Assembly: GCA_020848545.1 (NCBI GenBank)
Contig: JADLHZ010000151.1
Coordinates: 62,001-126,000 of the forward strand
DNA from: Deltaproteobacteria bacterium
GTDB lineage: Bacteria > Myxococcota > JADLHZ01
Direction of reading: 5' to 3'
DNA: 64,000 bases
The first letter of the stretch is position 1. Each line of letters begins with the position of its first letter. Made by a program: the position numbers and the translations under genes. Shown in pieces: positions 22,587 to 33,531 of this stretch. Below the pieces are notes generated by a model that was given only the letters and a program-made list of their open reading frames with translations, was not told where the DNA came from and made no database searches.

Positions 22587-24032
22587 ATGCTCATCGCGCT
22601 CTTCGTCCTCGCGGCCATGGATCCTGTCTACGCGGAGATCAAGAAGCAGCACGCCCAAAACATTGAGCGCCTGCAGCAATGGATCGCGCTGCCGAGCATC
22701 GCCGCCGAGAACCTCGCGAGCGAAGAAGGCGCCACGAAGATGATGGCGCTGTTGAAGGAGGCCGGGTTTCAACGCGTCGAGCGCGTGGCGACCGACGGCA
22801 AGCCCGGGGTGTTCGCGACGCTCGACGCCGGCGCCAAGAAGTCGCTCGGCCTCTACTTCATGTACGACGTAAAGCAGTACGACCCGAAGGAGTGGTCGTC
22901 GCCGCCGCTCGCCGCCGCGATCGTCGACAAGCCGGGCATGGGCAAGATCATGATCGGCCGCGGCACCGTGAACCAGAAGGGACCGCAAGCGGCGTTCCTC
23001 GCGGCGCTGCTGGCGTTCAAAGCGGCAGGCCAGAAGCTGCCGGTGAACCTCGTGCTCGTCGCCGAGGGCGAGGAAGAGATCGGCTCGCCGCACTTTCATC
23101 AAATCGTGAAGAAGCCCGAGGTGCAGCAGGCGCTGAGCAAGACGATCGGCGTGTTCATGCCGTCAGCGGCGCAGGCGCTCGACGGCGAGGTCGTCGTGTC
23201 GCTAGGGGCCAAGGGCGTCGTCGAGCTCGAGCTCGTCGCGAGCGGCGAGAAGTGGGGCCGCGGGCCGCAGAAAGACGTGCACTCTGGGCAGCGCGCGCGC
23301 ATCGACAGCCCGGCGTTTCACTTGGTGCAAGCGCTCGCGACGCTGGTGAACAAGGACGGCGATCCCGCGATCGACGGCTTCGCCGACGCCGCCCGCGCGC
23401 TCACGGCCGACGAGAACGCCATGATCGAGAGCGCCGCGAAGCGTTCGAGCGAAGCCGACGCGAAGAAGACCTTCAGCGTGACGAAGTGGGCGCACGACGT
23501 GTCGTGGAAGGAGTCGCTCGTGATGCTCGCGGCGCGCCCGACGGTGAACATCGAAGGCCTCGTAGGCGGCTACACCGGTCCCGGCGGCAAGACCGTGCTG
23601 CCGAACCGCGCCGTCGCCAAGATCGATCTGCGCCTCGTGCCGAACATGCGCTTCGACGCCGCCGTCCTTGCGCTGCGAGCCCACCTGAAAAAGCGAGGGT
23701 TCGGCGACATCGAGGTGAACGTGAGCGGCGGCTATGATCCCACCGAGACGAAGAAGGACGCGTGGCTCGTGCGCGCGCAACAGAAGACCTACGCGAGCTA
23801 CGGAATCGAAGCGCCGTTCTGGGTGCGCAACGCCGGATCGTATCCCGGCTTCGTCTTCACGAACCCGCCGTTGTCCTTGCCGGCCGGGCACTTCGGCCTG
23901 GGGCACGGCGGCGGGGCGCATGCGCCGGACGAGTACATATTAATAGAGAGCGCCACACCTAAGCTCAAAGGCTATGACGACGCGATCCGCTCCTTCGCCG
24001 ACTATTTAGTCACCCTTGCCGAGGGTTCCTGA
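22587..24032 (+). CDS. M20-family metallopeptidase-like protein with altered metal ligands
   Basis: A 481-aa protein of M20 peptidase/dipeptidase layout. The start LIALFVLAAMDPVYA could be a signal peptide, so export is possible. The family's HxDV motif reads FMYDVKQYD: the zinc-binding His is Met92 while the catalytic-support Asp94 is kept. The bridging-Asp motif GRGxxDxKG reads GRGTVNQKG, with Asn129. The EGEEEIGS glutamates (162-164 region) are intact and a C-terminal GHGGGAHAPDE region carries late histidines. It therefore lacks two standard metal ligands; it may bind one metal, or have become non-catalytic. 89 bases separate it from the acyltransferase-P450 gene on the same strand. An internal ATG (Met11) would remove the signal-like part. 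Confidence 0.82.
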   Translation: MLIALFVLAAMDPVYAEIKKQHAQNIERLQQWIALPSIAAENLASEEGATKMMALLKEAGFQRVERVATDGKPGVFATLDAGAKKSLGLYFMYDVKQYDPKEWSSPPLAAAIVDKPGMGKIMIGRGTVNQKGPQAAFLAALLAFKAAGQKLPVNLVLVAEGEEEIGSPHFHQIVKKPEVQQALSKTIGVFMPSAAQALDGEVVVSLGAKGVVELELVASGEKWGRGPQKDVHSGQRARIDSPAFHLVQALATLVNKDGDPAIDGFADAARALTADENAMIESAAKRSSEADAKKTFSVTKWAHDVSWKESLVMLAARPTVNIEGLVGGYTGPGGKTVLPNRAVAKIDLRLVPNMRFDAAVLALRAHLKKRGFGDIEVNVSGGYDPTETKKDAWLVRAQQKTYASYGIEAPFWVRNAGSYPGFVFTNPPLSLPAGHFGLGHGGGAHAPDEYILIESATPKLKGYDDAIRSFADYLVTLAEGS

Positions 24033-24121: not shown

Positions 24122-26914
24122 ATGAGGCTCGGTGCCCTGCCGGAGCGCATGACGGAGTTCATGGCGCTCCTCGACGATCCACGCGCCCCGCTCGTGATGC
24201 ACTTTCACGTGCGCTGGCAGGCGGATGCGCTTTTCTCGCTCGACGCCCTGCGCGCGGCGACGCGGCGGCTCTTCGAGAAGCACCCGCGCCTCACGGAGCG
24301 CTTCGCGCTCGACCGCGCCTGCTGGGAGCACGCCTCTGACCTCGACGCGCTCGTCGATCGCGTGTGGGAAGCGAATGGCGCATCGCTCGCGGAGTTTCGC
24401 GCATGCAAGATCGCCTTCGATCGCGCCCCGCTCTTTCGCCTGCGCGCAGACGGCGACGGTCTCTCGCTGGCGATGCACCACGTGCTCGCTGACGGAAAAT
24501 CCGGCGCGCACTTTCTCGGGCTCCTGCTCGCCGAGCTCACCAGCGAAGCGCTGCCGCAGCTGCGCGTGCGCGAGCGACCGGAAGCGAAGCTGACCTGGAA
24601 GCAGCTCTTCTTCGCGATCGTCGAGTGCTTCACGCGCGTCTTCGATCTCTTGTTTCGACCGCCGGTGATGCTCGGGCCCGTGACCTACGCAGGCGCCGGC
24701 GAGAGCTTCACCGCGCGCGTCGTTCCGAAGGGGGAGCTCGACGCGATGAACGCAGCGCTCAAGTCCGCGCACCCGGGCGCCACCTTGAACGAAGCGCTCT
24801 TGGCCGCGGTGCACCTGAGCGCGGCAGATCTTCTCGCCGAGCAGAAGGCGCGCGGCGTGGTGCACGGCGGCAGCGGGCGCATCTCGGTCATGATGCCGCT
24901 CGACTTGCGCCAAGCGTTGGGCCGCGCCGAGCCCTTTCACAACTTCTCGACGACCTTCTCGGTGACGAGCGCGCCGCGCCATCGCCGCCATGCGCACGCG
25001 TTGCTCCAGCACGTCCACGCGCAGGTCGATCGCGCGCGGCGCCGGCTCGCGGGGTTCGGACCCTTCTTGCTCTTCTCGCTCGCGCGCAGGCTCGGCGCCG
25101 TCGCCAAGGACCGCGCGCACCGTTCGCGACACGGCGCGCCGAAGCGGCTGACCGGCGGCGACCCGAAGTTTTGGCGCCAGCTCGACACCGTGATCTTCAC
25201 CTACCTCGGCAAGCTGCGTTTTCCGGCGGCGCTCGACCAGAAGGTGGACGGCATCGAGGGCTACGCGCCGGTGCTGCCGCCGTGCGGCGTGGCGATCGAC
25301 GCGGCGACGACGCAGCAAGGCCTGTGCTTCTGGCTGCACGCGAGCGACGCGACGCTGTCGCCAAAAGACGCCGAGCGCTTCTGCGATCTCGTGGTCGCCC
25401 ACACGCGAGCGATCTTGCAGCCGGCGGTCGCGGTGGCCGGGAGCCCTTCGCGCTTTGCCACGACGCGCGCGTTCTTTCGTGATCCCTTGGCGTTGCTCGG
25501 TCTTTGCCGCGACAAAGGTGACTTCGTGCGCTTGAACGTGCTTGGCCCGAAGCAATACGTCGCCAGCCACCCGGCGCTGATCGAAGAGATCTTGGTCGAC
25601 AAGGGCCGCGTGTTTCGCAAGGACCAGGCGCTGCGCATGCTCGCGCGCGTGCTCGGCGAGGGCTTGCTCACGAGCGACGGCACGTTTTGGGCGCAGCAAA
25701 GGAAGCTCTTGCTGCCGGCGTTCCACCCCTCGCGCATGGCCGGCTACGCGGCGCAGATGGTCGCCGCGAGCGATCGCTTGGCCAGCACCTGGAAGCCCTT
25801 CGAGCAGAAGGACGTTTACAAAGAGATGCTCGCGCTGACGATCGACATCGTCGGCCGCACGCTCTTTGGCGCCGAAGAGGCGGAGGACGCCGAGGAAGTC
25901 GGCGGCGCGCTCGACGCCGTGATCCAACGCTTGAGCGATCCGCTCTACGTGATGGCGCCGTGGGCGGTGCACCTCGGCCTGCCGAGCGGGCGCCGCTTCG
26001 TCCGCGCGCTGAAGACGCTCGACGCGCTCGTCGCTCGCCTCATCGCGCGCCGCCGCACGCGCCCGCTCGACGAAGGCGATCTCTTGGGCCTGATGATCGG
26101 CGCCGTCGATCGCGGCGCGATGACAAAGGAGGAGCTGCGCAACGAAGCGCTCATCCTCTACGTCACGGGTCACGAGACGACGGCGATCGCGCTCGCCTAT
26201 ACGCTGTGGCTCGTCGCCCAGAGCCCTGCGGTCGAGCGGCGCTTGCAAGGCGAGCTCAGCAGCGTCCTCAACGGGCGCTTGCCCACGCTCGACGACGTGC
26301 GCGCGCTGCCGTTCACCGAGTGCGTCGTCAAAGAAGCGCTGCGCCTGTATCCGCCGGCCTGGTCGCTCGCGCGGCAAGCGACCGAGACGACCAAGATCGG
26401 CCCGCACACGATCGAGAAAGGCGCCGCGATCTGGATGGGCCCGTGGGCCGTGCAACACGACGCGCGCTTCTTCCCGGATCCCGAGCGCTTCTCGCCGGAG
26501 CGCTGGCTCGATCCGAAGATGGAGCAGCTGCCGAAGTGCGCGTACTTCCCCTTCGGCTCGGGCCCGCGCGTGTGCATCGGCCAAGCGTTCGCGAAGAGCG
26601 AGCTCGTGCTGGTGCTCGCGACGATCGCCCAGCGCTTCAAGCTGCGCTTCGCCGAGCAGGCGCCGCCGAAGATGCGCCCGAGCTTCACGCTGCGGCCGAT
26701 CTCTTCGTTCGCCGCGACCGTTGTCCCGCGCGATCCCGAGGCGATGCCGGCACAGGAGCCCGTGCCGCTCCCGCAGGCCACGCGCATCATGGCGCCGTCG
26801 AAGTGCCCATTTCGCCGCATGCTCGGCATCGGACAAGTGTCGGAGAGCACCGATGAGAGCGACAAAACTCCCGTCCAGACGCTGCCGCCGGCGCCCTCGA
26901 TAACGGAAGCATGA
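24122..26914 (+). CDS. Condensation-like acyltransferase fused to cytochrome P450
   Basis: A 930-aa two-enzyme fusion in one uninterrupted frame. Residues ~1-440 resemble the condensation/PapA/wax-synthase acyltransferase superfamily: the active-site motif MHHVLADGKSG (HHxxxDG, H119-G125) is complete and SVMMPLDLR resembles the family's second conserved segment. Residues ~450-890 are a complete P450: C-helix WAQQRK, I-helix VTGHETTAIA, K-helix EALRLYPP, and heme loop FPFGSGPRVCIG with Cys at about 818. No TM anchor and no fused reductase, so electrons must come from elsewhere. I infer that an acyl group is transferred and the acyl or its acceptor hydroxylated. Its stop overlaps the next start (ATGA) of the GT-desaturase fusion, so the two are coupled. 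Confidence 0.88.
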   Translation: MRLGALPERMTEFMALLDDPRAPLVMHFHVRWQADALFSLDALRAATRRLFEKHPRLTERFALDRACWEHASDLDALVDRVWEANGASLAEFRACKIAFDRAPLFRLRADGDGLSLAMHHVLADGKSGAHFLGLLLAELTSEALPQLRVRERPEAKLTWKQLFFAIVECFTRVFDLLFRPPVMLGPVTYAGAGESFTARVVPKGELDAMNAALKSAHPGATLNEALLAAVHLSAADLLAEQKARGVVHGGSGRISVMMPLDLRQALGRAEPFHNFSTTFSVTSAPRHRRHAHALLQHVHAQVDRARRRLAGFGPFLLFSLARRLGAVAKDRAHRSRHGAPKRLTGGDPKFWRQLDTVIFTYLGKLRFPAALDQKVDGIEGYAPVLPPCGVAIDAATTQQGLCFWLHASDATLSPKDAERFCDLVVAHTRAILQPAVAVAGSPSRFATTRAFFRDPLALLGLCRDKGDFVRLNVLGPKQYVASHPALIEEILVDKGRVFRKDQALRMLARVLGEGLLTSDGTFWAQQRKLLLPAFHPSRMAGYAAQMVAASDRLASTWKPFEQKDVYKEMLALTIDIVGRTLFGAEEAEDAEEVGGALDAVIQRLSDPLYVMAPWAVHLGLPSGRRFVRALKTLDALVARLIARRRTRPLDEGDLLGLMIGAVDRGAMTKEELRNEALILYVTGHETTAIALAYTLWLVAQSPAVERRLQGELSSVLNGRLPTLDDVRALPFTECVVKEALRLYPPAWSLARQATETTKIGPHTIEKGAAIWMGPWAVQHDARFFPDPERFSPERWLDPKMEQLPKCAYFPFGSGPRVCIGQAFAKSELVLVLATIAQRFKLRFAEQAPPKMRPSFTLRPISSFAATVVPRDPEAMPAQEPVPLPQATRIMAPSKCPFRRMLGIGQVSESTDESDKTPVQTLPPAPSITEA

Positions 26915-29127
26915 TGACCACGGTGCTCATCACGCTCGCCGGCTTCGCGTTCGTCGCGCACGCCGGCATCTTCTTGCTCGGCATCGCGCTCGCGTGGCGG
27001 CAACACTCGAAGAAAGCGCCGCCGGCCCGCGCGCTGCCCGTGACGATCCTGAAGCCGCTCGCCGGCTTCGACGACGGCCTCGAGGACAACCTGCGCTCGT
27101 TCTTCGCGCTGCAGCACGCGGCGCCGTTCGAGCTCGTGTTCTCGATCGACGCCTCCGAGCGCACGGGTGACGCCGCGGCGCTCGCGCAGCGTCTGATCGC
27201 CGAGCATCCTGCGGTGAGCGCCCGCTTCGTCCTCTCAGCGCGCGACGCTGGCGACAACCCGAAGATCGCGAACTTACTCGCCGGCGCCGCCGTCGCGCGT
27301 CACGATTTCGTGCTCGTGAGCGACGCCAACGTGCGCGTCGCGCCGGACTATCTGACGCGGCTCACCTCGCACTACTCGGACGACGTCGGCGTCGTGTGCA
27401 GCTGCATCGTCGGCAAGGGCGCGGAGAGCTTCGGCGCGGCAGTCGACGGGCTCGGCCTCAACACCTTCTACACGCGTGGCATGTTCCTCTCGATGCTCGG
27501 CGGCGAACCGGCCGTGCCGGGCAAAGGGATGCTCTTCTCCACGCGCGCGGCCGAGCGCTTCGGCGGTCTGCGATCGCTCTTGCGTTACTTCGCCGAGGAC
27601 TACCTCTTCGGCAAGCGCATGCTGGGCCTCGGCCTGCGCATCGTCGCGACCGAAGAGGGCCTCGTGCAGCACATGGGGCGGTCGAGCGTGCTCGACTACA
27701 TGCGCCGGCAAATCCGCTGGAGCCAGATTCGCCGGCTCTACGGCGGCGCCGCGTACGCGTTCGAGCTGTTGACGATGAACGCGCTCGCTCCGGCGGTGCT
27801 CGGCGGCGTCGCGGCGGCGTGGCTCTTCGGCTTCTCGGCCGTCTCGTTCGCGGCGGCGTGGCTCGCGTTCGAGCTCCTCTGCGATCTCGCGCTTACGCTG
27901 AAGGTCGGCGGCGACGTGAGCGCCCGCTTCCCCCTCTATTGGCTCGCGCGCGAAGCCCTCGCGCTTCCGATCTGGATCGCCACCTACGCGTCACGGCACA
28001 TCGTCTGGCGTGGCAAGAGACTGCCCTTCGATCGCGAAGGCCGCGTCACCGAGCCGGTCGAGATGTTCACGAAGACGAAGAAGGGCGAGCCGCACTACGA
28101 GCGCCGCCGCTTCATCATGAAGAAGTATCCGCAGATCCGTTCGTTGATGGGCCACGACACGCGCACGGCGTGGGTGACCATCGCCGTCGTGATCCTGCAG
28201 CTCGCGCTCGCGTGGGGCTTCGCGCTGCTCGCCGCGCAAGGGAGCGTCTTCGCGCATCCGATCGCCATGGTCGTCTACGCCTACGCGTTCGGCGCGATCC
28301 TGACGCACTGGCTGAGCATGACCATCCACGAGACCTCGCACGATCTCGCCTTCAAATCGCACCGCGCGAACCAGGCGCTGGCGTTGCTCGCCAACATTCC
28401 GATGCTCGTGCCGATCGCGATGACCTTCCATCGCTATCACTTGGGCCACCACGCGCTGCTCGGCGTCGACAAAGAGGACACCGACCTGCCGACGCGGTGG
28501 GAAGCGCGCGTGATCCGCCGCTCGACCGTGCTGAAGTTTCTGTGGCTCTCGCTCTACTTCTTCGTCTACTCGCTGCGCGGGCTCACCTTCGCCAAGAAGC
28601 CGAACCGCGCCGAGTGGCTGAACATCGTGTTCAGCTTGACGATGACTGCTTTGATCGTGAAGACGCTCGGCTGGACGGCGTTCGCGTACCTCGCGTGGAG
28701 CATGTTCTTCGCGCACAGCCTGCACCCGGTCGCGGCGCACTTCATCCACGAGCACTACATCTTCTCGGCGCCGCAGGAGACGTACTCGTACTACGGCGTG
28801 TTGAACCGGGTGACCTTCAACGTCGGCTATCACGTGGAGCACCACGACTTCATGAACGTGCCGGGGTGGAAGCTGCCGGCGCTCCACGCGATGGCGGGCA
28901 CCGAGTACTCGCGCCTCGTGTCGCACAAGTCGTGGACGCTCGTCCTGCTCGAGTTCATCTTCTGCCCGCGGATCGGCGTCGACAGCCGCGTCGTGCGCAG
29001 CCGCGCGGCGTTTCAGCGCACGCGCACGCAGGCTCACAAGGAGAGCAACGAGCGCGAGCATCGCTGGAAGAAGCCGGCGCACGAGAATGACCTCGGCGAG
29101 ATCACCGGCGAGGTGCTCCTATGGTGA
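26911..29127 (+). CDS. Ceramide-glucosyltransferase-like GT fused to dihydroceramide delta-4-desaturase
   Basis: A 738-aa membrane protein. Residues ~1-385 are a GT-A glycosyltransferase of GT21/HpnI type: N-terminal TM, ILKPLAGFDDGLEDNL, DxD-like SDANVRV, EDYLFGK, and the (Q/R)xxRW motif in RRQIRWSQIRR. Residues ~395-738 match sphingolipid delta-4 desaturases (DEGS/DES1) nearly end to end: KKYPQIRSLMGHDTRTAW, box 1 HETSHD, box 2 HRYHLGHH, ETYSYYG, and box 3 FNVGYHVEHHDFMNVPGWKL. All three His boxes and both GT active-site regions are intact. I infer that one polypeptide both desaturates the sphingoid base and adds a sugar to the ceramide at the inner membrane. Overlaps both neighbours (4 and 7 bases). 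Confidence 0.92.
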   Translation: MMTTVLITLAGFAFVAHAGIFLLGIALAWRQHSKKAPPARALPVTILKPLAGFDDGLEDNLRSFFALQHAAPFELVFSIDASERTGDAAALAQRLIAEHPAVSARFVLSARDAGDNPKIANLLAGAAVARHDFVLVSDANVRVAPDYLTRLTSHYSDDVGVVCSCIVGKGAESFGAAVDGLGLNTFYTRGMFLSMLGGEPAVPGKGMLFSTRAAERFGGLRSLLRYFAEDYLFGKRMLGLGLRIVATEEGLVQHMGRSSVLDYMRRQIRWSQIRRLYGGAAYAFELLTMNALAPAVLGGVAAAWLFGFSAVSFAAAWLAFELLCDLALTLKVGGDVSARFPLYWLAREALALPIWIATYASRHIVWRGKRLPFDREGRVTEPVEMFTKTKKGEPHYERRRFIMKKYPQIRSLMGHDTRTAWVTIAVVILQLALAWGFALLAAQGSVFAHPIAMVVYAYAFGAILTHWLSMTIHETSHDLAFKSHRANQALALLANIPMLVPIAMTFHRYHLGHHALLGVDKEDTDLPTRWEARVIRRSTVLKFLWLSLYFFVYSLRGLTFAKKPNRAEWLNIVFSLTMTALIVKTLGWTAFAYLAWSMFFAHSLHPVAAHFIHEHYIFSAPQETYSYYGVLNRVTFNVGYHVEHHDFMNVPGWKLPALHAMAGTEYSRLVSHKSWTLVLLEFIFCPRIGVDSRVVRSRAAFQRTRTQAHKESNEREHRWKKPAHENDLGEITGEVLLW

Positions 29128-30431
29128 CGCACGCGCTTGCGGCCCGCGCTGCCCCGTCAACGAAGGCGCATCGCTTGTCCCTGCCCGGCGCGATCCGCTT
29201 GGGGAACCACATCGCCGTCGACGCCGCCGAGGCGATCCGCCAGGTGTGCGATCGGCACGGCGAAGTGGTGCGGGTGCGCATGCCGCGGCACACGCTCTAC
29301 CTGACGAGCAGCGACGTCGCCATCCAGCACGTGTTGAAGACGCGGCAAGCGAACTACGAGAAAGCGACCTTGCGCGGGGCCTTCGCCTCCTTGTTCGGCG
29401 ACGGCCTCATCATCTCGGACGGGCCGCGCTGGCTCGCCGATCGCCGCCTGATGCAGCCCTTCTTCGGCAAGACGAGCATGACCAAGCTGAAGGAAGACAT
29501 CGGCGCGTCGATCGCCGAAGAGGTGCGGGCGTTCGGTGCCGGCAGCGTGAACGTTCAGGCCGCCGCCGATCGCGCGAGCCTCGTCACCTTCGCGCGGACG
29601 ATCTTCGGCGTCGAGATCGGCCCGCACGTCGCCGCGCTGCGCCGCCTGTTCGCCGCCGGCGTGCACGCGGTCTACGAGCGCGACGGCGCGTTGATCGACT
29701 GGGACCGCTGGTTCACGACGAAGAGGCAGGAACGCTTCCTCGGCGATCGCGCCGAGCTCTACGCGATCGTCGACGCTTTGGTGCGCGATCACACGCCGAA
29801 CGGCACCATGTTCGACGCGCTCATCGACGCGGCGCGCGCGATGCCGAACGGTGCGCAATGGCTGCGCGACCACGTGATCACCATGCTCATCGCTGGCCAC
29901 GAGACGGTCGCCGCTACGCTCGTTTGGGGCATGATGCTGCTCGCCGCCGCTCCGCGCGCGCAAGCCGAGCTGCGCCTCGGGATCGATCACGGCGACGACA
30001 GCTATCTGAAGCAGGTGCTCTTCGAGACGATGCGCCTCTACCCGGCCGTGTGGTGCGTCAGCGGCCGGCGCGCCCTCGAGGCCGACGAGATCGCCGGCGT
30101 TCCGATCGCCGCCGGCGAGATGGTCGTGCCGTGCATCTACGCCATGCATCGCAACGCACGCTTGTGGTCGCAGCCCGACGCGTTCTTGCCCGAGCGCTTC
30201 GCCCACGCGCAAGCGAGCAAGCGCCCGAGCTACCTGCCCTTCGGCGCCGGCGCCCGCGTCTGCATCGGCGAGCACATGGCGATGATCATGCTCGAAGCGG
30301 CGTTGAAGGAGCTCATCGCGCGCTACGAGATCGCGCCGATCGACCGGTCGATGCTCCGTGAAGTCGGCCACGACGCGGCGCTCACTTTGCGGCCGAAGAC
30401 TGAGCCCTTCCTCACCCTGACCACGCGCTGA
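29121..30431 (+). CDS. Cytochrome P450
   Basis: A 436-aa soluble bacterial P450. Visible are the C-helix DGPRWLADRRLM, the I-helix MLIAGHETVAATLV with the oxygen-activating Thr replaced by Val at the second position (GHETVA), the K-helix ETMRLYPAVW (ExxR), and the heme loop LPFGAGARVCIGE with Cys at about 381. No reductase domain. The start overlaps the GT-desaturase stop by 7 bases, making it the third gene of the inferred sphingolipid operon; a fatty-acyl or sphingoid-base hydroxylase is a reasonable guess, but the substrate is not visible. It is shorter than, and clearly distinct from, the P450 half of the 24122 gene. Confidence 0.92.
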   Translation: MVTHALAARAAPSTKAHRLSLPGAIRLGNHIAVDAAEAIRQVCDRHGEVVRVRMPRHTLYLTSSDVAIQHVLKTRQANYEKATLRGAFASLFGDGLIISDGPRWLADRRLMQPFFGKTSMTKLKEDIGASIAEEVRAFGAGSVNVQAAADRASLVTFARTIFGVEIGPHVAALRRLFAAGVHAVYERDGALIDWDRWFTTKRQERFLGDRAELYAIVDALVRDHTPNGTMFDALIDAARAMPNGAQWLRDHVITMLIAGHETVAATLVWGMMLLAAAPRAQAELRLGIDHGDDSYLKQVLFETMRLYPAVWCVSGRRALEADEIAGVPIAAGEMVVPCIYAMHRNARLWSQPDAFLPERFAHAQASKRPSYLPFGAGARVCIGEHMAMIMLEAALKELIARYEIAPIDRSMLREVGHDAALTLRPKTEPFLTLTTR

Positions 30432-32736: not shown

Positions 32737-33531
32737 TCATGGCGACGTCAAGAACTGCGCGTACCAGGCGCGTAACGGCATGACGAAGCGATCGACGCTG
32801 CTCAGGCGCGGGGCGGCGAGGTACTGTCGGCGATCCCAGATCGCGCGTTCTTTCATCGTGTCGGCGCGGGACTTGGCGAAGACGACCCACGCAGCGAGCA
32901 GCGGAAGCAGCGGTAGCCAGCGCGGCTTCTTGGCGCGGACCGAGATGCGATAGCGCGTCAGCCCGGCCCGAATCGGATAGGTCGTCGTCATGACCATCGC
33001 GTCGAAGAGCAGCCACGTCTTCATCAGCATCAACGCCGGCCCGATCATCTCGATGTCTAGGCGCGCGGGGAACCCAGGCACCGGCGTCGCCAGCGGAAAA
33101 CGCGCCTCGAGACGCGCCTCTGCGCCCGCTGGCTCGAAGCGCAGCGTGGCGGGAGCTTTGGCGCCGTGGATCTCGACAAAGTGCGCGGCGTCGCTCACGT
33201 TCTCGACGACGTCGATCGGATGGCCGCGATAGTCGCTCTCGTCGGTGAAGACGCGCGTCCATCGGCGGGTGAGATACTCGTCGAGCTTCGGCGGCGGTGG
33301 CGGCGCGCGGCCGCTGCGATCGTAGTGCACGAAGATCAAGCCGCCGGTCTCGTGAATCGGCCACGGCTCTTGCGCGTCGCGAGCGAGATCGCGCGCCTCG
33401 ACCGCGCCGCTCGCGCTGCGCACGATCTCGATGCGACGCGAGAAGGCTTCGACGCAACGGGCCCGGCCGCGCGGCAGCTCGGGGCTCGAGAGCAGCGCAA
33501 ACCAGCCGTTCGGCATCGGCAGATCGCTCAT
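32737..33531 (-). CDS. Steroid-type Rieske oxygenase catalytic domain lacking the Rieske cluster
   Basis: A 264-aa protein. It opens like a Rieske oxygenase (MPNGWFALLSSPELPRG) and resumes with the post-Rieske segment WPIHETGGLIFVHYD. The mononuclear iron site motif ENVSDAAHFVEIHG gives D114, H117 and H122 (D-x2-H-x4-H). The ~80-residue 2Fe-2S Rieske domain (C-x-H ... C-x2-H) that should lie between these parts is missing; residues ~40-56 bridge the gap in frame. The rest resembles cholesterol-7-desaturase / ketosteroid-hydroxylase-like catalytic domains. Without the cluster it cannot accept electrons in the usual way, so it is either inactive or uses another partner. ATG start at 33531. It lies 17 bases before the MYXO-CTERM gene. 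Confidence 0.72.
   Translation of the reverse strand: MSDLPMPNGWFALLSSPELPRGRARCVEAFSRRIEIVRSASGAVEARDLARDAQEPWPIHETGGLIFVHYDRSGRAPPPPPKLDEYLTRRWTRVFTDESDYRGHPIDVVENVSDAAHFVEIHGAKAPATLRFEPAGAEARLEARFPLATPVPGFPARLDIEMIGPALMLMKTWLLFDAMVMTTTYPIRAGLTRYRISVRAKKPRWLPLLPLLAAWVVFAKSRADTMKERAIWDRRQYLAAPRLSSVDRFVMPLRAWYAQFLTSP

Follow-up and report, generated by a model that had tools for sequence, protein, structure and literature searches.

Cytochrome P450s that share a polypeptide with a second enzyme are known from CYP102, in which the partner is a reductase, and from natural P450-peroxidase/dioxygenase fusions such as CYP5619 (PMC5919972). The protein described here resembles both in carrying a P450 and a second enzyme in one chain, and differs from both in that the partner is an acyltransferase and that no reductase or peroxidase domain is present. 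Its N-terminal half has the whole-domain fold and the HHxxxDG motif in common with the HxxxD O-acyltransferases of the PapA5 type (PapA_C, condensation superfamily) but, unlike those enzymes, it gives no Pfam-level match and is fused to a P450. A condensation-like fold also works together with a P450 in glycopeptide synthesis, where X-domains recruit Oxy P450s; by contrast, the protein considered here has an intact catalytic motif, is covalently fused and is accompanied by no NRPS. We know of no described P450 fused to a condensation/PapA-type acyltransferase, and none was found in the open-access literature. Each part of the protein is of a known kind; what is new is their joining, and the operon in which the joined gene is found.

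The window, by which we mean the whole stretch of 64,000 nucleotides of DNA, from a deep-branching myxobacterial genome, that was analysed, carries the fusion gene as the first of three overlapping genes, followed by a glycosyltransferase/desaturase fusion of GT21 type and a second P450. The features considered are the following:

22587..24032, plus strand: M20 metallopeptidase-like protein, 89 bases upstream of the fusion gene (Peptidase_M20 1.1e-14)
24122..26914, plus strand: acyltransferase-P450 fusion gene, 930 aa (open frame; p450 3.1e-77; acyltransferase fold)
24158..25432, plus strand: HxxxD (condensation/PapA-like) acyltransferase domain, residues 13-437 (AlphaFold model alignment; invariant H120, D124 and R263)
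24476..24496, plus strand: HHVLADG catalytic motif, residues 119-125 (H120 and D124 invariant in a 19-sequence alignment)
25418..25462, plus strand: linker, residues 433-447 (alignment of standalone acyltransferase ends and P450 starts)
25442..26707, plus strand: cytochrome P450 domain, residues 441-862 (Pfam p450; phmmer to solved P450s)
26552..26581, plus strand: heme-binding loop FGSGPRVCIG with Cys818 (motif)
26911..29127, plus strand: GT21-type glycosyltransferase fused to a sphingolipid desaturase, 738 aa (Glyco_transf_21 6.9e-37; Lipid_DES 1.5e-11; FA_desaturase 4.2e-20)
26938..28050, plus strand: ceramide glucosyltransferase-like domain, residues 10-380 (Glyco_transf_21; solved ceramide glucosyltransferase)
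28066..29010, plus strand: delta4-desaturase-like domain, residues 386-700 (Lipid_DES; FA_desaturase; relatives near SPT and GNAT genes in three loci)
29121..30431, plus strand: second cytochrome P450, 436 aa (p450 9.4e-52; clade with post-desaturase P450s)

The sequence-only reading had proposed that an acyltransferase and a P450 lie here in one frame, and this frame indeed runs from ATG to TGA without interruption over 930 codons, with no sign of an assembly join. When standalone homologues are aligned to it, the acyltransferases stop near residue 432-436 and the P450s start, past a proline-rich stretch, near 441-450, so that the linker measures about 15 residues and nothing of the P450 is missing but its usual proline-rich N-terminus. 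The P450 is unlikely to be translated by itself from an internal start, because the sole start-like codon in the linker, the GTG of residue 438, is not preceded by a Shine-Dalgarno sequence. Every relative seen consists of separate genes, as would be expected if two genes had been joined by an assembly or sequencing error, but the junction is buried about 42 kb deep in a contig of 130 kb, the window contains no N, third-position GC stays at 0.81-0.95 throughout both halves, the linker has no ribosome-binding site, and the fusion gene ends in a 4-base overlap between its own stop and the start of the gene that follows; the probability of such an error appears negligible. The genome is rated 100% complete. 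Chance is excluded, because both domains exist as full-length separate genes in other genomes, and we consider the fusion confirmed as real. Of the two observations named in advance as speaking against it, homologues that consistently form two genes were found and evidence of an assembly join was not, which leaves the fusion of neighbouring genes as the natural reading.

The N-terminal 436 residues fall below every Pfam cut-off (for Condensation, E = 0.14 and 11.2 bits against 30.6), and the homology of this half therefore rests on its motif, its relatives and its fold. All 19 sequences of an alignment have H54, H120, D124 and R263 in common. At E<0.01, 17 of the 19 give a match, the window member not being among them, and PapA_C is matched by 18, the window member being the sole exception. 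An AlphaFold model of the domain built on this alignment (pLDDT 72.7, pTM 0.79) aligns over residues 13-437 to NRPS condensation domains, with Z in the range 23-30 overall, and its fold matches include AzeD (Z 30.4), the TRI3 15-O-acetyltransferase (Z 24.9) and PapA5 (1q9j, Z 24.0). Among the features that define the HxxxD superfamily, the HHxxxDG motif and the two-lobed fold are thus present, and a sequence match above a Pfam cut-off is absent. The wax ester synthase/DGAT model (WS_DGAT_cat) gave no match to the window domain and matched three relatives weakly. The X-domain/OxyB complex (4tx3) is also among the structural matches and, given the condensation-type fold, the N-terminal half might be a non-catalytic domain that presents a carrier-bound substrate to the P450; known X-domains have a degenerate catalytic motif, whereas the catalytic His and Asp are here intact and invariant in the relatives, and we regard a role of this kind as very improbable. 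A model of the full-length fusion (pTM 0.48, with the P450 half mostly at pLDDT <70) is too poor for an interface or a hinge to be read from it.

The C-terminal domain matches Pfam p450 over residues 466-854 and carries all the hallmarks of the P450 superfamily, namely the heme loop FGSGPRVCIG (811) with Cys818, an ExxR motif of sequence EALR (738) and the acid-alcohol pair of the I-helix in TGHETT (682), together with FSPERW (790). With HHVLADG at 119, both active-site motif sets are therefore intact, as had been noticed from the sequence. The best solved relatives found by phmmer are a putative bacterial P450, the plant LUTEIN DEFICIENT 5, the putative P450 3dbg and CYP102 (BM3), and among NCBIfam models terpene hydroxylases are the nearest. 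The self-sufficiency of CYP102 is not found, since the fusion protein gives no reductase match and only about 70 residues remain after the P450; the operon also contains no redox partner gene. The bacterial P450s known to hydroxylate fatty acids at position 2 are CYP152 peroxygenases, a group without the acid-alcohol pair. As the I-helix Glu-Thr is kept, the fused P450 most likely works as a monooxygenase dependent on a redox partner rather than as a CYP152 peroxygenase, and the CYP152 model gives it 16.4 bits against a cut-off of 600. The main reason for expecting 2-hydroxy fatty acids is thereby removed, and the 2-hydroxy-acyl sphingolipid product that had been suggested for this protein finds no support; neither does the accompanying idea, that the acyl chain transferred is also the chain hydroxylated.

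The rarity suspected for this fusion was borne out in the genomes searched, as it occurred only in the window's own genome among about 900 (195 Myxococcota, 377 genomes of the phylum that includes locus L158, described below, and 345 of a third phylum), the nearest of the genomes compared sharing only its phylum. For the acyltransferase, a profile search recovered about 20 relatives that are full-length and stand alone; fusion to a P450 was seen in none. No close relative of the whole protein was returned by a pattern scan of 84,980 genomes, a method insensitive for so divergent a protein, and a search of plasmids gave no match to the fusion. A 1046-residue frame with a P450 in genome G002 was considered as a second fusion and rejected, its upstream part being antisense to a TetR-like gene.

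The gene that follows the fusion overlaps the second P450 gene by 7 bases and is itself composite. Its glycosyltransferase half matches a ceramide glucosyltransferase of the PDB at 1.3e-36, and the HpnI model gives this half 192 bits, below its cut-off of 310 although the profile still matches well. Its desaturase half has what characterises sphingolipid delta4-desaturases, that is, an N-terminal Lipid_DES domain, FA_desaturase and conserved His boxes. In kind, the two halves resemble animal UGCG and DEGS1 (GT21 and Lipid_DES/FA_desaturase), but here they are bacterial and form one polypeptide. Within the phylum, the genes that best match the glycosyltransferase half are distinct from those that best match the desaturase half, and among 80 desaturase loci of other genomes not one has a glycosyltransferase of GT21 type within reach; two fusion genes, acyltransferase-P450 and GT21-desaturase, therefore adjoin in one operon. 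The two enzymes of the latter polypeptide (26911-29127, plus strand) are separate in every relative seen. The second P450 groups in a tree with P450s located directly after desaturases in L157 and L158 (support 96/89), its own branch being long. Whether the M20 metallopeptidase-like gene belongs to the operon is uncertain. Elsewhere in the window (32737-33531, minus strand), a 264-residue KshA_C protein (Rieske oxygenase catalytic) has, as called, little room for a Rieske part.

With a desaturase and a ceramide-glucosyltransferase-like partner beside the fusion, and core sphingolipid genes on another contig of the genome, the sphingolipid-like setting that had been guessed was recovered. The dihydroceramide set of Caulobacter comprises five genes, AasR, AcpR, Spt, Epi and Aca (PMC9386255), and PKS-derived sphingolipids are known from SgaAB, where SgaA and SgaB are two genes (PMC12134224). 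On contig C65 of the window's genome, a PKS that ends in an SPT-like domain is accompanied by an ACP, an acyl-AMP ligase, an epimerase/dehydrogenase (SDR) and a GNAT; the ligase, ACP, SPT-like domain, SDR and GNAT match the Caulobacter pathway in kind, with the difference that this set lies on another contig than the fusion. In C65 as in SgaAB a PKS goes with an SPT-like domain, in one chain in the former and in two genes in the latter. The domain scores 321 bits against an SPT-model cut-off of 640 and, being below the cut-offs of SPT models, is called here SPT-like and not a proven SPT. The PKS (L108:8957-14440, minus strand, G000) has 1827 residues and combines KS, ACP, KR and DH with the SPT/AOS-like domain in one chain. 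No gene physically links the window operon to the C65 sphingolipid locus. In three loci (L186, L222 and L226), a desaturase of this family is found within about 8 kb of an SPT and of a GNAT like that of C65.

This sphingolipid context, and the fact that HxxxD enzymes include amide-forming condensation domains, would also suit an N-acyltransferase acting as a second ceramide synthase. However, the genome already possesses a GNAT of the kind found beside SPT in sphingolipid loci, which could serve N-acylation, and the fold matches outside the NRPS domains include the O-acyltransferases PapA5 and TRI3; O-acylation is for these reasons more likely, and a second ceramide synthase improbable.

The same parts occur elsewhere in unfused form. 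In the compared loci, genes were called with a simple script that uses the codon bias of the window as its training set, and starts may be misplaced. In the window's own genome, contig C108 carries an acyltransferase (HHAIVDG, 403 aa), a desaturase and a convergent P450, all as separate genes, and since this genome has only about six P450 genes, two meetings of acyltransferase and P450 in it are unlikely to have arisen by chance. Among other Myxococcota, with this genome left out, the standalone acyltransferase adjoins a P450 in 8 of 20 loci, in at least three independent arrangements: in G097 the P450 follows on the same strand with 98 bases between, G153, G154, G150, G165, G115 and G111 share one common cluster with the acyltransferase convergent to the P450, and G166 has another arrangement. 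With 15-70 P450 matches per genome, we estimate the probability of such adjacency by chance at about 1%. L158, from a MAG titled 'Proteobacteria', contains on one strand a P450, a UGT-type glycosyltransferase, a 281-aa protein, an acyltransferase (HHAVVDG), an uncharacterised protein, a desaturase and a P450. We consider a recurring lipid-tailoring neighbourhood to be well supported. Some acyltransferase relatives adjoin PKS/NRPS genes or a terpene-cyclase-like gene; the latter (L148:3667-5130, plus strand), which by eye resembles class II diterpene cyclases, has as neighbours an acyltransferase-P450 pair and a second P450. In Archangium-like genomes, relatives of the desaturase (L073:8611-10239 and L075:6975-8603) are extended at the N-terminus by about 220 residues, which by eye resemble a helical iron-binding domain.

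In the P450 tree, the P450s that adjoin acyltransferases fall in several lineages, and the fused P450 belongs to a lineage other than that of the second P450; its nearest relatives, at up to 48% identity, are standalone genes. The supposition that these close relatives travel with an acyltransferase failed, as none was nearby in 20 neighbourhoods. The several lineages would make the P450 partner exchangeable and, together with an adjacent fusion whose two enzymes could act in separate steps, this would agree with a fusion that serves co-expression only, its domains acting uncoupled on different substrates or steps. The pairing recurs in separate lineages, however, which suggests a shared product, though not coupling, and we hold a role in co-expression only to be unlikely.

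The product itself might be other than a sphingolipid, the operon modifying a hopanoid, terpenoid or polyketide that the acyltransferase-P450 pair decorates. Standalone acyltransferases of the family lie beside PKS and glycosyltransferase genes (L100, L143-L145) or beside the diterpene-cyclase-like gene of L148, the HpnI likeness of the glycosyltransferase half would suit a hopanoid-type acceptor, and terpene hydroxylase models are those nearest to the fused P450. On the other side, the glycosyltransferase carries a fused desaturase of Lipid_DES type, desaturases recur with acyltransferase and P450 in C108 and L158, and relatives of the desaturase are near SPT and GNAT genes in three loci, and such a product seems to us rather unlikely.

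Our preferred reading, to which we give a probability of roughly 0.5, is that neighbouring acyltransferase and P450 genes fused into one gene for a bifunctional enzyme, which oxidises and O-acylates a ceramide-type sphingolipid with its operon partners. The PapA/condensation-like domain would, via His120, acylate a hydroxyl, with the acyl group supplied by CoA or a carrier protein, and the C-terminal P450 would hydroxylate the lipid, receiving its electrons from a redox partner that is not linked to it; the ceramide-glucosyltransferase/delta4-desaturase fusion and the second P450 would tailor the same ceramide-type sphingolipid together with the fusion. In the simplest coupling, the P450 would make, or prepare, the hydroxyl that the acyltransferase esterifies. 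The sequence data establish the fusion, its intact motifs, the acyltransferase fold, the layout of the operon and the recurrent proximity of the unfused forms; that both halves are catalytic, that the substrate is a ceramide, that acylation is on oxygen and that the two reactions are coupled, in whatever order and to whatever product, are inferences. Several points weigh against the reading: the operon and the C65 locus are not physically connected, the glycosyltransferase half is also similar to HpnI, some acyltransferase relatives neighbour PKS/NRPS or terpene-cyclase-like genes, the closest relatives of the fused P450 have no acyltransferase near them, and the operon lacks a redox partner. 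It is conceivable, but quite doubtful, that one protein both hydroxylates ceramide and esterifies the new hydroxyl, leading to acyl-oxy glucosylceramides through two fusion enzymes of two steps each, both encoded in this operon; if true, bacteria would have a counterpart of the acylated ceramides found in skin.

The fusion offers a single expressible protein with which substrate and step order can be tested. Beyond this protein, the recurring trio of acyltransferase, desaturase and P450, with components close to the animal enzymes of glucosylceramide, suggests that the tailoring of sphingolipids, or of sphingolipid-like lipids, has in bacteria a branch that is so far unstudied.
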